Positions 2,049 through 6,980 of a stretch of DNA of 20,436 nucleotides are shown one piece after another (position 1 is the stretch's first letter; each line of letters opens with the position of its first letter). This DNA is from a virus. Below the pieces are notes generated by a model, which was not told where the DNA came from, made no database searches, and was given only the letters and a program-made list of their open reading frames with translations. Made by a program: the position numbers and the translations under genes. Location: IMG/VR virus record IMGVR_UViG_3300015360_000238, positions 1-20,436 of that record. One strand, written 5' to 3'.

Positions 2049-3079
2049 AGTTTGAAAGCGAACTGGCCCCGATCGCGGCGGCAATCAAGCGCGCCCGCAC
2101 CGTCATTGCATCCCGCCAAACCATCCCCATCCTAGGGTGCGTTCATATCACTGCCAGAGACACCGGGCTGAGGATTACTGGCACGAACATGGACGAGTGG
2201 GTCACAGTCCAATCAGATGCGGCGGTCGCTGTCCCCGGCGCGGTATGCGTTGACGCAGGACTGATCGGCGCATGGCTGCAAACACTGCCCAAGGGCGCGC
2301 TTGTATCGGCTTCGCTGATCGACAATCGTCTTGCCGTCACGGCTGGCCGCGCCACGGCATCCTTCGCCGTGATGGATGCGAAAGACTACCCGTCGCCGGT
2401 CACGCCGGATGCCGGGGTGGAGTTGATTGACGCAGCGCGAGGGTTGGCAATGTGCCTGCCGTTCGCTTCAAGCGAAGAAACCCGATATTACCTCAAAGGC
2501 GTGGCGATCAACCGCGGGCACGCCGTGGCGACGGATGGACATCGTCTATGCTCAGTGGACATCGGCGCCGATGCTGATGGGGCAGTCATCATTCCCACGA
2601 GCGGCGTTCAGCAGATCGTTCAGGGGTCCCCAGCGGCGCGGCTGTGGGTGACAGACACGATGTGGCGGTGCGAGGATGCAGGGGTGGTCGCGGGCGGCAA
2701 GCTGATTGAAGGAACATTTCCGGACTGGACGCGACTAATGCCAGTGGCGGATGCTTCCGGCACAGTTGATGCGGACGCATTGGCTGGCGCAGTGGCGACG
2801 GTGTCAGTGTCCGGCGATGATCGGGCATCCTGCGTCAAGATGGTGGCGGCTGATGGCGAGATTGAGCTTTCGTGCACGGGCAGCGCCATGACCGCGACGG
2901 GGGCCGTCAGTTATGACGGATCGCCGTTTGAGTTGGGCATCAATGGCAAATATGCCGACGCCGCACTTGCCGTCTTCACGGGGCGATGCGTGTCGATTGC
3001 GGTAGGCGAAGGGAAAGCGGTGATGACCAGCGATGCGCTGCATGGCGTTCGCGTCTTGGTCATGGGGATGAGAGTATGA
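2045..3079 (+). CDS. dnaN-like: DNA polymerase III beta-like sliding clamp
   Basis: The 344-residue product resembles bacterial DnaN along its length. R-Q-T-I-P-I-L-G at residues 24-31 matches the first-domain RPTLPILG segment. RYYLKGVAI ... ATDGHRL matches the second-domain signature, and EGTFPDWTRLMP matches EGxFPDYxxxLP. The C-terminus LVMGMRV corresponds to the VVMPMRL tail that forms part of the partner-binding cleft, with Pro replaced by Gly. It is about 20 residues shorter than cellular clamps. A clamp dimer encircles DNA and tethers polymerase and other partners. The start is GTG overlapping the previous stop, with GGAGAG 5 bases upstream. Phage-encoded DnaN homologues are known but uncommon. 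No DNA polymerase gene is in view, so it may work with the host enzyme. Confidence 0.9.
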   Translation: MKFESELAPIAAAIKRARTVIASRQTIPILGCVHITARDTGLRITGTNMDEWVTVQSDAAVAVPGAVCVDAGLIGAWLQTLPKGALVSASLIDNRLAVTAGRATASFAVMDAKDYPSPVTPDAGVELIDAARGLAMCLPFASSEETRYYLKGVAINRGHAVATDGHRLCSVDIGADADGAVIIPTSGVQQIVQGSPAARLWVTDTMWRCEDAGVVAGGKLIEGTFPDWTRLMPVADASGTVDADALAGAVATVSVSGDDRASCVKMVAADGEIELSCTGSAMTATGAVSYDGSPFELGINGKYADAALAVFTGRCVSIAVGEGKAVMTSDALHGVRVLVMGMRV

Positions 3080-3219
3080 CCCGCTACGTTGATCGGGAAG
3101 CCAAGCCATTGCCCATGTATCTGCCGATTACCGATGCCAGCGCTAAAGCCGTGCGCGCGTTCTGGCGAGGGATCTTCATCGGCGCGGCTGTGGGATTGGC
3201 CGTAGGGGTGATGTGGTGA
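3076..3219 (+). CDS. 47-residue C-terminal membrane-anchor protein
   Basis: The ATG overlaps the clamp stop (ATGA). The N-terminal 28 residues are polar and charged (MTRYVDREAKPLPMYLPI...). The C-terminus is a Gly/Ala/Val-rich hydrophobic helix (FWRGIFIGAAVGLAVGVMW), i.e. one membrane segment at the extreme end. The cytoplasmic methyltransferase gene starts 2 bases after its stop. Function is unknown. Coupling to the clamp gene is the main reason to call it. Confidence 0.6.
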   Translation: MTRYVDREAKPLPMYLPITDASAKAVRAFWRGIFIGAAVGLAVGVMW

Positions 3220-3220
3220 C

Positions 3221-4459
3221 ATGGCAATACATTCCAGACCAAGAAACGGCATCAGCCTGTGCGCAGGAGCCGGAGGTCTTGATCTTGGCCTCATGCTTGC
3301 CGATCCGGGCTTTCACACGCGATGCTTTGTCGAATGGGAAGACTACCCTCGAAAAGCCATCATCGCAGCCCAGCGCGCAGGATACTTCGCTCCCGCCCCT
3401 ATCTGGGATGATCTTCGCACCTTCGACGCAACCCCATTCCGGGGCGCAATCGACACCGTGCTTGCCGGATACCCATGCCAGCCATTCAGCCAAGCTGGAC
3501 AGCGCAAGGGCGAAGATGACCCCCGCCATCTCTGGCCCGAGGTTGCCCGCATTGTCCGGGAAATTCAGCCTGAATGGGTGTTCCTCGAAAACGTCGCCGG
3601 TCACATCACCCTCGGCCTTGAAGCCGTGCTGCGAACCCTATGGGACATGGGCTACACGCCTGCGGCTGGCGCATTCTCGGCGGCTGAAACTGGTGCGCCG
3701 CATGAAAGGCTCCGCGTATTCATCGTGGCCCACACCGATGAGCCTGCATCCCGGCACGGATCGCTACAACCCGGCAGGCAACAGCGACTTCACTCGCAAG
3801 GCGGAAGCGCTGGCGCTGGGCATCACCAACTGGTCGACGCCCAAGGCGACCGATGGCGCGAATGGTGGCCCGGGCCAGAGCTACGGCTCGGGCGGGATGC
3901 CACCCCTGCCAGCGCAGGCGGCACAATGGCAAACGCCAGTGGCGGACGACCAGATGGATCGGCTGCGCGGCAAGATCAACAGCCGGGGCGAGCCGAAGCT
4001 GTCGGCGCAAGCGCTGCAATGGCCGACGCCTGCCGCACAGAACTGGAAAGGGTCGAGCGAGGCCAGCATCACCCGCGCCAATGGCAAGAGCCGGATGGAT
4101 ATCCTGCATTACCGCGCCGAACAGGGCTTCACCCACCCGGACCAGGTGACAGCGCAGCATGGGCCGAAACTCTCGCAGCTGCGCCCGATCTGGCGCCCGC
4201 TACGGGCCTCGGTGATTGCCTCGCATGGGCAAGCCGTCTGGCGCAAACTCTGGAAGTAACGGGCCAGGCGCAGGCTCAATCCGATCTTTGGCGAATGGCT
4301 CATGGGCTGGCCGCCAGGTCACGCGCTTTGCGATTGCTCGGCAACGGAGTTCACCCGCTGGCAGCGGCACATGCGTGGCGCACTCTCAGCCATGCCCATG
4401 GCCTCGGGGCCGTGGATCTGGAAACCGCCGGCCGAAACGGTGGCCTTGATGCAGGATGA
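3221..4459 (+). CDS. C5-cytosine DNA methyltransferase
   Basis: The 412-residue frame contains the m5C methyltransferase motifs in order. Motif I is SLCAGAGGLDLGL (12-24). Motif IV is GYPCQPFSQAG with catalytic Cys86. Motif VI is ENV (123-125). Motif VIII is ERLRVFIVA (162-170). The motif X-like GNGV (374-377) is in LLGNGVHPLAAAHAW. It transfers a methyl group from AdoMet to cytosine C5. No restriction endonuclease is nearby, so protection of phage DNA against host restriction is the likely role. The segment between motifs VIII and X (about 171-371), normally the target-recognition region, is low-complexity and has poor codon bias here. A different frame over the same bases looks more coding (see next entries). 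Either two proteins are encoded or the active enzyme needs frame changes. Confidence 0.85.
   Translation: MAIHSRPRNGISLCAGAGGLDLGLMLADPGFHTRCFVEWEDYPRKAIIAAQRAGYFAPAPIWDDLRTFDATPFRGAIDTVLAGYPCQPFSQAGQRKGEDDPRHLWPEVARIVREIQPEWVFLENVAGHITLGLEAVLRTLWDMGYTPAAGAFSAAETGAPHERLRVFIVAHTDEPASRHGSLQPGRQQRLHSQGGSAGAGHHQLVDAQGDRWREWWPGPELRLGRDATPASAGGTMANASGGRPDGSAARQDQQPGRAEAVGASAAMADACRTELERVERGQHHPRQWQEPDGYPALPRRTGLHPPGPGDSAAWAETLAAAPDLAPATGLGDCLAWASRLAQTLEVTGQAQAQSDLWRMAHGLAARSRALRLLGNGVHPLAAAHAWRTLSHAHGLGAVDLETAGRNGGLDAG
3702..4259 (+). CDS. Alternative-frame W-x-T-P repeat protein inside the methyltransferase gene
   Basis: In the +1-shifted frame, ATG 3702 opens 185 codons to TAA 4257-4259; the same frame is open back to about 3213. 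By my hand count over about 135 codons (3738-4140), G/C at third positions is near 80% in this frame and near 55% in the methyltransferase frame. So this frame carries the codon bias. It has four W-x-T-P motifs: SSWPTP, TNWSTP, AQWQTP and LQWPTP. From memory, such WPTP proteins are common beside or within phage cytosine methyltransferases, sometimes annotated as methylases. Their function is unknown to me. It may be an overprinted gene, or the true target-recognition segment of a methyltransferase split between frames. Confidence 0.5.
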   Translation: MKGSAYSSWPTPMSLHPGTDRYNPAGNSDFTRKAEALALGITNWSTPKATDGANGGPGQSYGSGGMPPLPAQAAQWQTPVADDQMDRLRGKINSRGEPKLSAQALQWPTPAAQNWKGSSEASITRANGKSRMDILHYRAEQGFTHPDQVTAQHGPKLSQLRPIWRPLRASVIASHGQAVWRKLWK

Positions 4460-4499
4460 CCTTTTCGGCACGATTGACACGCAGCACGGCGGGGCATAG
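4260..4499 (+). pseudogene. C-terminal remainder of the W-x-T-P frame after an in-frame stop
   Basis: Directly after TAA 4257-4259 the same frame continues for 79 codons to TAG 4497-4499. It contains LNPIFGEWLMGWPPGH and CDCSATEFTRW, then a Pro-rich end with MQDDLFG. Third positions stay GC-rich (about 79% by hand count against about 58% in the methyltransferase frame). I recognise the EWLMGWP block from memory as a usual C-terminal feature of W-x-T-P proteins, so the stop seems to cut one protein in two. An internal ATG at 4302 (65 residues) could restart translation. It extends 40 bases past the methyltransferase stop. QDDLF fits the bacterial clamp-binding consensus. Confidence 0.4.
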
Positions 4500-4593
4500 T
4501 GTTGGCGGGCGCGGCACGGGGGCACCCGAGCGCATCGCCCTACCGATGCCTGCCGCGCACTTCACAGTAGGACAACCCGTAGGAGGGGTGAGC

Positions 4594-5979
4594 ATGACAA
4601 ACATCAAAGCATATCGGGCGTTTATCGCCGCAAAGGTCAAGGCAATGCCTCGACGCGGATTTGACCCGAAGCCCATCAACACCATGGCAAAGGCGCATCA
4701 GGTCGCGGCCATCAACTTCGCACTGAACCTTGGCAAGTCCGCCGAATTCCTGGATACCGGCCTTGGAAAAAGCTTCATCGAGTTGGAGTTTGCGCGCCAG
4801 TGCTGCGAAGAAACACGCAAGCCGTCTCTGATCCTGACGCCTCTGGCCGTTGCCGGTCAGATGGTTCGGGAGGGGCTGAAATTCGGCATTGAAGCCCGCC
4901 AGATCCGGGAACATGTGGACGTAGGGAGCGGCATCATGGTTGCCAACTATGAGCGACTGCCGAAGCTTGATCCGTCCGCGTTCGGTGCGATTATCCTTGA
5001 TGAAAGCAGCATCCTGAAATCGTTTGCCGGTCGCACGCGCAACATGCTGATGGATGCATTCTCTGCCACGCCTTACAAGCTGGCCGCAACTGCTACGCCG
5101 TCGCCGAACGACCATACCGAACTCGGAAACCACGCCGAGTTTCTAGGCGTCATGCGACAGCAAGAAATGCTCTCAAAATGGTTTATCAATGACACCGGGT
5201 CAGCATCGCAAGACTGGCGATTGAAGGGTCATGCGGTCGAAAGCTTCTGGGCATGGGTTGCAAGCTGGTCTCGGTGCGCCACCATGCCGAGCGATCTTGG
5301 GGGGGATGACACCGGATACATCTTGCCGTCGATAGACCGGCATTTGCATGAAGTCGCAGCGGACAGGACAGCCGACACGCAAGGGCTTTTGTTCCGTATT
5401 CCTGAAATGTCGGCCACGTCGTTTCATGCCGAAAAGCGGTTGACGCTGGCCAATCGGTGCGCGCTGGCGGCGGAACTGGCAACGCATGACAAGCCGGTGA
5501 CTGTCTGGTGCGAAACAAATGAGGAAAGCGCCAATCTGGCCAGGATGATCCCCGATGCGGTGGAAGTGCATGGCGCGCTTGATGCGGATGAGAAAGAGCG
5601 GCGGTTGCTTGGCTTTGCCGATGGCGCTTTTCGCGTGATCGTGACCAAGCCGAAGTTGGCTGGTTTTGGCGTCAACTGGCAGCATTGTGCCCATGCGGTT
5701 TTTGCCTCGATCAGCTTCAGCTATGAGCAGCACTATCAGGCCGTGCGCCGGTCGCAGCGCTTTGGGCAGAAAGAGCAGGTCCGCAACGATATCGTGTTCA
5801 GCGACACCGAGCGTTCGATTTGGGAAGCCGTGAATGTCAAAGGTCAGAACCACGAGGAAATGAAGCGCCGGATGGCCGATGCAATGCAAAAAGCGCAAGG
5901 CAAAACAGTGACAAACGTAGCATACGACAGGCCGCTTGAATTGGCGTTCCCGTCTTGGATCAAGGGAGAGACAGCATGA
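4594..5979 (+). CDS. SNF2-type SF2 helicase/translocase
   Basis: The product has 461 residues with helicase motifs in order. Walker A is DTGLGKS (54-60) and Ia is ILTPLAV. Motif II is ILDESS (134-139; DESS instead of DEAH). Motif III is AATATP. Motif V is VTKPKLAGFGVNW, and motif VI is QAVRRSQRFGQ, typical of SNF2-like ATPases. Such proteins move along duplex DNA rather than unwinding it. ATG 4594 is preceded by AGGAGG at 7 bases; the open frame extends further upstream but has no such site. It is coupled (ATGA) to a DNA methyltransferase gene, a pairing often seen in phages. It may help modification or remodel bound proteins. No nuclease domain is present. Confidence 0.87.
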   Translation: MTNIKAYRAFIAAKVKAMPRRGFDPKPINTMAKAHQVAAINFALNLGKSAEFLDTGLGKSFIELEFARQCCEETRKPSLILTPLAVAGQMVREGLKFGIEARQIREHVDVGSGIMVANYERLPKLDPSAFGAIILDESSILKSFAGRTRNMLMDAFSATPYKLAATATPSPNDHTELGNHAEFLGVMRQQEMLSKWFINDTGSASQDWRLKGHAVESFWAWVASWSRCATMPSDLGGDDTGYILPSIDRHLHEVAADRTADTQGLLFRIPEMSATSFHAEKRLTLANRCALAAELATHDKPVTVWCETNEESANLARMIPDAVEVHGALDADEKERRLLGFADGAFRVIVTKPKLAGFGVNWQHCAHAVFASISFSYEQHYQAVRRSQRFGQKEQVRNDIVFSDTERSIWEAVNVKGQNHEEMKRRMADAMQKAQGKTVTNVAYDRPLELAFPSWIKGETA

Positions 5980-6980
5980 AAAAGCAACCAGAATACAGCG
6001 GTGCGGGATGGGCGCTACACAATAGCGATTGCATTGAGGGCATGGCGGCGATGCCACCCGATAGTGTGGATTGCGCCATATTTTCACCTCCTTTCGGTGA
6101 CTTATTCGTTTACAGCGACAGCGAGCGCGATCTTGGCAACGCTGGAACGGGAGAGAAATTCATCAACCAATATTCGTTCTTCGCGAACGAACTGACCCTC
6201 GTCATGAAGCCCGGTCGGATGACGTGCGTTCACTGCACAGATTTGCCGATGCGCAAGGGCAGGGATGGGGCGATTGGGCTGCAAGACTTCTCGGGCGATC
6301 TGATCAAGGCGCACACTGCGGCAGGTATGATCTACCATGGTCGCACGACAATCTGGAAAGATCCGGTTGTCGAGATGCAGCGGACAAAAGCGCTGGGCTT
6401 GCTTTACAAGCAGATCCGGAAAGACAGCACAATGAACCGCGTTGGCATGCCCGACTACATGCTTTTTTTCCGCAAGGATGGGGAAAACCCTGACCGGATC
6501 GAGCATTGCGCGCCGGGGGATAAATCTGCAGGACTACCCATCGCCCGCAAATGGCTGGAGCATATGCGCAAGCATGGGCTTTGCGCCGCCGTGCCGGATG
6601 ATGCGGTTTTGGCCGAGTTGATCAAGCATGTGGAGTTTGACGTTTACGAATGGCAGAAGCTGGCAAGCCCGGTATGGATGAATATCAAGCAAGGCAACGT
6701 CCTGAACGGCTACCGCAAGGCGCGCGCTGACGGCGACGAGCGGCATGTCTGCCCGCTGCAACTGGACACTATCGAGAATTGCCTGCGGCTCTACAGCAAG
6801 CCTGGCGATGTAGTTATGGACCCGTTCAACGGCGTTGGCAGCACGGGCTATCAGGCGATCAAGATGATGCGCAGGTATCTTGGATTTGAGCTGAAGCCGG
6901 AATATGCAGAGCAGGCCAATGCCAACCTGATCGACGCGGAGCGGTCATGCAATGATCTGTTCGAAATGGCAGCCGAATGA
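5976..6980 (+). CDS. Site-specific DNA methyltransferase (N4-C/N6-A type)
   Basis: This 334-residue amino-methyltransferase has catalytic motif IV SPPF (37-40) ahead of the AdoMet-binding motif I DPFNGVGSTG (282-291), the order of the beta class. SPPF rather than DPPY leans towards N4-cytosine, but N6-adenine is possible. The long insert between motifs probably holds target recognition. The C-terminus has the usual GFELKPEYAEQA helix. I start at ATG 5976 (MKKQPEYSG) because it overlaps the helicase stop; a longer start upstream lies inside the helicase gene. With the cytosine enzyme it gives the phage two kinds of DNA methylation, probably anti-restriction. Confidence 0.88.
   Translation: MKKQPEYSGAGWALHNSDCIEGMAAMPPDSVDCAIFSPPFGDLFVYSDSERDLGNAGTGEKFINQYSFFANELTLVMKPGRMTCVHCTDLPMRKGRDGAIGLQDFSGDLIKAHTAAGMIYHGRTTIWKDPVVEMQRTKALGLLYKQIRKDSTMNRVGMPDYMLFFRKDGENPDRIEHCAPGDKSAGLPIARKWLEHMRKHGLCAAVPDDAVLAELIKHVEFDVYEWQKLASPVWMNIKQGNVLNGYRKARADGDERHVCPLQLDTIENCLRLYSKPGDVVMDPFNGVGSTGYQAIKMMRRYLGFELKPEYAEQANANLIDAERSCNDLFEMAAE

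Follow-up and report, generated by a model that had tools for sequence, protein, structure and literature searches.

A nested reading frame in a phage cytosine methyltransferase locus probably encodes the recognition-region subunit of a naturally split enzyme

The window, that is, the whole stretch of DNA that was analysed, is a virus record of 20,436 bases. Its cytosine methyltransferase locus, which has relatives mostly in Rhodobacterales and their viruses, lies downstream of a DNA-polymerase clamp gene and is followed by a helicase gene, an adenine methyltransferase gene, and then the terminase and portal genes. According to the list of open reading frames and the motif positions, a C5-methyltransferase frame of 412 amino acids, here called alpha, carries motifs I–VIII in its N-terminal part and motif X in its C-terminal part (Table 1). 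The frame shifted by +1 relative to alpha, in which a second polypeptide, beta, can begin at an internal ATG, is open over 3213–4259 and, past a single TAA, over 4260–4499. It includes an EWLMGWP block at 4293–4313. In most relatives, beta has a length of approximately 190–248 amino acids.

These features had been pointed out in an earlier, sequence-only reading of the same DNA, and recomputation reproduced them: the limits of alpha (3221–4459) and of the shifted frame with its TAA, the four W-x-T-P repeats and the EWLMGWP block in the shifted frame, and the use of the same bases for SATEF (4338–4352) and for GNGV (4340–4351). A hand count of the third-position bias (80% against 55% G+C) became, when computed over 3738–4118, 0.82 in the beta frame against 0.57 in the alpha frame.

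Several smaller observations belong to the same region. The end of alpha (4459), the start of the helicase and the beta frame all overlap at 4456–4499, where the beta frame would reach 44 bases into the helicase ORF (4456–5979). A second DNA methyltransferase-like gene (PHROG 67) occupies 5955–6980, directly after the helicase gene and overlapping its end. The number of W-x-T-P units ranges from 0 to 5 per locus (L001–L067), with peaks at 4, 2 and 3, and it varies by in-frame loss that preserves both frames. Such units may be exchangeable recognition modules.

Table 1. Features of the methyltransferase locus, in window coordinates.
Feature	Position	Strand	Remarks
Alpha, C5-cytosine methyltransferase frame	3221..4459	+	Pfam DNA_methylase residues 10–175, phrog_363, AF2 model
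Alpha motif I, LCAGAGGLD	3257..3283	+	motif position
Alpha motif IV with catalytic PCQ, AGYPCQPFS	3464..3490	+	motif position
Alpha motif VI, FLENV	3581..3595	+	motif position
Alpha motif VIII, GAPHERLRVFIVA	3692..3730	+	motif position
Alpha motif X, GNGV	4340..4351	+	shares bases with beta SATEF 4338–4352
Beta, putative recognition-region polypeptide, ATG 3738, 173 aa in the window	3738..4259	+	phrog_27243, 295 bits
W-x-T-P unit 1 (WPTP), beta frame, 5' of ATG 3738, overlapping alpha motif VIII	3726..3737	+	
W-x-T-P unit 2 (WSTP), beta frame	3831..3842	+	
W-x-T-P unit 3 (WQTP), beta frame	3927..3938	+	
W-x-T-P unit 4 (WPTP), beta frame	4020..4031	+	
In-frame TAA ending beta ahead of motif IX	4257..4259	+	sense codon in relatives
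Remainder of beta frame, motif IX-like block and SATEF	4260..4499	+	PHROG 27243 likeness, 6e-30
Motif IX-like block, beta frame, RLNPIFGEWLMGWP	4272..4313	+	precedes motif X in one chain elsewhere
Beta frame 5' of ATG 3738, open, protein little constrained	3213..3737	+	omega_beta 0.65 over 3240–3734

Alpha appears to be the catalytic part of an enzyme. It matches the Pfam DNA_methylase model with 118 bits, and motifs I, IV (PCQ), VI (ENV), VIII and X of the C5 methyltransferases are all found on its chain. The AF2 model of alpha aligns with M.HhaI at Z 17.4 and rmsd 3.2 over 197 residues. When alpha is modelled alone, pLDDT is approximately 80 in the large domain and approximately 30 at residues 178–309, which is exactly where its recognition domain should be. 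Because these residues drift (omega_alpha 1.34) and are disordered in the model, alpha appears to be without a recognition domain of its own. The chain does not combine a target recognition domain with motif IX, and the motif IX-like block occurs only in the +1 frame. As modelled, residues 178–309 of alpha are a shadow of the beta frame, an unstructured read-through.

The identity of beta was approached through its relatives. From ATG 3738, it matches the profile of PHROG 27243, a phage protein of 248 residues with no assigned function, over 1–170 and 175–244 of the profile length, and the TAA falls between the two parts. The betas of other phages match PHROG 1008. Among the 160 loci resolved by a motif scan, a set that was gathered with beta queries and is therefore no census of all phage methyltransferases, 157 have an EWLMGWP-type block in the +1 frame and motif X back in frame 0. 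The same parts can also occur together. Contigs of the mycobacteriophage type (L247, L248, L249, L252, L253) carry motifs I–VIII, LPTP repeats, 'LNPRFAEWMMGWP' or a similar block, and GNGV in a single frame. The beta profile (A1) matches the recognition/IX part of such single-chain methylases, and the alpha profile (A2) matches their motifs I–VIII and X. A motif IX-like block followed by motif X in one chain is found in L247–L249, L253, Firecracker gp5 and ArV1 67b. Moreover, Firecracker gp6 and gp5 match separate parts (205–374 and 441–482) of one PHROG 116 methyltransferase. The IX–X piece of the single-chain profile aligns collinearly to residues 271–308 of M.HhaI, an alignment that is not significant alone. 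Since single-chain methylases hold the same parts in one frame, beta probably corresponds to the small domain of a C5 methyltransferase, that is, to the recognition region and motif IX.

Other searches returned less. Neither the beta profile nor the IX–X segments matched any solved structure, and an NCBIfam search with beta found nothing. Beta modelled alone reached a pLDDT of 44, and the model was not used. Joining alpha, beta and alpha into an artificial composite did not raise the Pfam score above that of a shuffled control, since the model alignment goes no further than motif VIII even when the methylase is a real single-chain one. As beta itself matched neither a fold nor a domain, it might be thought an independent protein with another task, such as a regulator or an anti-restriction factor, that overlaps the methyltransferase by chance. 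However, the same recognition-region and EWMMGWP sequence forms part of single-chain methylases, and no recognition domain under constraint is present in alpha; an independent beta is very unlikely.

Further indications come from selection in the two frames, compared across 67 viral relatives that are 45–86% identical in beta. In nearly all of them, both frames are open over 1.1–1.25 kb, and length variants drop W-x-T-P units, yet both frames stay open. Column variability is highest at alpha third positions over 3219–3698, moves to beta third positions over 3759–4118, returns to those of alpha for approximately 60 bases, and is low at all codon positions over approximately 4179–4418. Overlap-aware substitution rates follow the same course. 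Over motifs I–VIII, omega_alpha is 0.11 and omega_beta is 0.65. In the recognition region, omega_alpha is 1.34 [0.84–2.22] and omega_beta 0.15 [0.10–0.24], and in the IX/X overlap at 4281–4418, the values are 0.15 [0.07–0.31] and 0.12 [0.05–0.25], with intervals that come from codon resampling rather than a tree and leave the kinship of the loci outside the model. The values of 0.65 (beta, N part) and 1.34 (alpha, middle) were taken as baselines, representing a frame in which no selection is visible. Read against them, the rates indicate that only alpha is constrained over motifs I–VIII, only beta over the recognition region, and both at the end, where purifying selection acts in both frames on the same bases.

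Stop codons were also counted in the window family, where the loci are related and the counts are consequently not independent: over the beta-constrained segment, alpha has 0 stops in 64 loci, with approximately 1.26 per locus expected from synonymous shuffles (L025, which was left out of this test, does carry an alpha stop there), and over the N part, the beta frame is without stops in 62 of the 67 loci, with 1.7 per locus expected from shuffles and 4.3 per 170 codons seen in control genes. An alpha frame that is kept open across the recognition region fits translation through to motif X. The openness of the N part of beta is also compatible with beta starting far upstream. As far as substitution patterns and open frames can tell, it is confirmed that both frames are coding and that the observation is more than chance.

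It could still be argued that only alpha is real, given that shadow frames are often open at high G+C and that alpha by itself scores as a methyltransferase; the beta frame would then simply result from the codon bias of DNA rich in G+C. The middle of the locus, where omega_beta of 0.15 stands against omega_alpha of 1.34, speaks against this, as do the presence of the overlap with 0 stops in phages of 38–45% G+C and the annotation of beta, not alpha, in some genomes by PHROG 27243 and RefSeq. This explanation is scarcely credible. Such a high-GC artefact was rejected on codon-position tests, stop tests and the AT-rich phages.

The suspicion voiced in the sequence-only reading that the overlap is conserved was borne out, as homologous phage loci keep both frames open. 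Its suggestion of an overprinted gene holds in form, and a better description appears to be a recognition domain with motif IX made as a separate polypeptide with its own start. Its alternative, a recognition domain in the other frame, was right in substance (omega_beta 0.15 against omega_alpha of approximately 1.3). The two-frame comparison of constraint that it proposed found both frames constrained at the end of the locus; elsewhere in the overlap, constraint falls on one frame or the other and switches between them. This switch from frame to frame was not foreseen there, nor was the truncation of the second protein by the TAA.

The same layout is found in other phages. In the locus of Acinetobacter phage ABMM1, alpha lies at 2020–2934 and beta at 2024–2920 of that locus, and the family around this pair displays the overlap more clearly still than the window family. 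Both frames are fully open in 80 of 80 viral relatives of this pair, at a G+C of 0.38–0.66, and the beta ATG mostly stands 4 nt after the alpha start. In one half, this family has 0 stops where 170 are expected, and in the other half 0 where 266 are expected, compared with 773 in the third frame. Constraint also extends to the N part of beta here, with omega_beta of 0.41–0.47 in two of three N segments. The overlap also occurs in Paenibacillus, Escherichia, Salmonella, Pseudomonas, Komagataeibacter and Lacticaseibacillus phages. In the actinophages Firecracker (L234) and ArV1 (L236), motifs IX and X are both in the +1 frame. Annotation is mixed: Pagassa gp59 and gp60 are both listed as methyltransferases, and elsewhere, only one frame is listed. 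Judged from these sequences, the two-frame layout is of long standing and occurs widely in phages, and annotation has mostly missed it. In a tree of alpha motifs I–VIII, nested forms fill several deep branches, and single-chain and AquI-like forms fall in one clade. The tree is unrooted and its branches are long, so the direction of change is unsettled; a single origin of the nested form is neither shown nor excluded by it.

Individual loci have departed from this layout. In Komagataeibacter phage phiKX1 (approximately 2519–4300), the C-terminal pieces of the two overlapping frames, GYGNAIVPQ and TAMPSSRKS, recur approximately 500 nt past the end of beta. Inserted sequence lies in between, and a gene for an HNH endonuclease follows shortly downstream, so that the overlapping methyltransferase seems to have been interrupted at motif X by an insertion. 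On plasmid pRA03 of Roseicitreum antarcticum (4004–4753), beta (WP_223814412.1, TTG start) is listed as a DNA methyltransferase, and the RefSeq-derived gene table, which is incomplete, lists beta only; alpha with the catalytic motifs is absent there. In L045, L321, L346 and L351, the C-terminal part is frameshifted, replaced or decayed. The beta of L321 is 95% identical to that of the window over 105 residues, after which both frames are lost.

How beta is translated can be addressed through its start codon. ATG 3738 is preserved in 132 of 136 distinct loci. The alpha codon above it is NAT in all 132, and its residue varies among D, N and Y; elsewhere in alpha, 48% of the D/N/Y codons end in T. 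Because the ATG is conserved while the alpha residue varies, initiation at 3738 is favoured in the window family. A second candidate start, 4 nt after that of alpha, is ATG in 56 of 66 loci. It is conceivable, if doubtful, that the frames are translated full-length from starts approximately 4 nt apart (NTGAATG) to give two proteins of almost the same extent, either of which would fold only in regions where its partner is a shadow. One ribosome-binding site would then set their ratio, and in the phages of several bacterial phyla the overlap would keep the catalytic core and the recognition module linked as they evolve.

Alternatively, a programmed frameshift from alpha to beta after motif VIII could produce a fused chain with motifs I–VIII, the recognition region and motif IX, a route that the sequence-only reading had offered. 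In Firecracker and ArV1, where motifs IX and X are both in +1, one shift would give the whole enzyme. However, the window family and most others (157 loci) have motif X in frame 0 and would require two shifts, and in the window, where motif X returns to the first frame, a single shift would yield an incomplete enzyme. An alpha frame open across the recognition region is needless for a shifted product, the internal beta ATG is conserved, and no conserved slippery run was seen at 3690–3745 by eye. With motif X in the first frame and ATG 3738 kept in nearly every locus, a frameshift is not needed, and it is considered unlikely.

The copy in this genome may not represent the working state. Its TAA at 4257–4259 is a sense codon in the relatives, and since beta stops before motif IX, the copy is predicted to be inactive, probably so unless the TAA is read through. 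Changes past the TAA that are silent in alpha and alter beta number 5.7 against 6.8 in other pairs; as they are not raised, the TAA is either young or tolerated. On balance, there is a leaning towards a pseudogene in decay whose beta acquired its stop recently, based on the position of this stop ahead of motif IX and its absence from intact relatives. Against this, alpha is intact, and the unraised beta-altering changes mean that decay is recent at most, or that the stop is tolerated. Decay of the window copy is compatible with a split enzyme in the relatives, and the two are not exclusive.

Taken as a whole, the locus is rather likely to be a naturally split, two-subunit C5 methyltransferase with a nested beta, in a phage of (mostly) Rhodobacterales. 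Alpha would make the catalytic, SAM-binding large domain with motifs I–VIII and X, and beta, in the +1 frame from ATG 3738, the small domain with the W-x-T-P recognition region and motif IX. Both proteins would be translated and would assemble into one enzyme, in which beta would set the target specificity, and the intact relatives would represent its working form. Such an enzyme would methylate phage DNA, probably against host restriction.

The consequences reach beyond this locus. Gene finders normally reject overlaps of this length, so most annotations lack one half of a common phage enzyme or list it as a protein of unknown function, as with PHROG 27243 and many W-x-T-P proteins. If the split-enzyme reading is true, an inactive enzyme results when only the annotated gene is cloned, and a function can be assigned to a large set of hypothetical proteins. 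Targeted methylation could then draw on phages as a source of naturally split methyltransferases whose recognition subunits can be exchanged. The locus, as a dual-coding gene that is old and has single-chain relatives, would also be a test case for the origin and persistence of overlapping genes.

C5 enzymes made of two polypeptides are already known, namely M.AquI and M.EcoHK31I; M.EaeI is also a two-subunit C5 methyltransferase. In 1995, Lee, Kam and Shaw reportedly found that the gene for the small subunit of M.EcoHK31I lies within that for the large subunit, in a different frame. Like M.AquI, the proposed enzyme is split after motif VIII into two polypeptides. The small subunit of M.AquI holds motifs IX and X, whereas motif X of the window is in alpha; the M.AquI pattern is matched by Firecracker gp6/gp5 and ArV1 67a/67b. 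In M.EcoHK31I, the large subunit carries motifs I–VIII and X, the small subunit carries motif IX alone, and the TRD is assigned to the large subunit (PMC3404938). As in that enzyme, motif IX is on the second polypeptide and motif X on the first (157 loci; in the window, the block lies past the stop), and beta (3738–4259, with its frame continuing to 4499) is nested in alpha (3221–4459) and intact in relatives. Unlike in M.EcoHK31I, beta alone shows constraint over the recognition region, and the counterpart in alpha drifts. In a comparison by description only, the window locus further differs in being phage-borne, in its W-x-T-P repeats, and in that no restriction partner was seen. The mycobacteriophage methylases Ramsey gp69, DLane gp65 and McProf gp6 have the same order of parts (I–VIII, LPTP repeats, EWMMGWP, GNGV), all in one frame, whereas the middle part of the window locus is in +1. 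The PHROG 27243 entry does not state an overlap with a methyltransferase, and no description of an overlap of this kind in phages was found in the literature searched. Within that literature, and as far as the papers show, four things appear new: the wide and, from the tree, old distribution in phages; a recognition region that would belong to beta while the alpha version drifts; the function proposed for PHROG 27243 and the W-x-T-P proteins; and the single-chain relatives.
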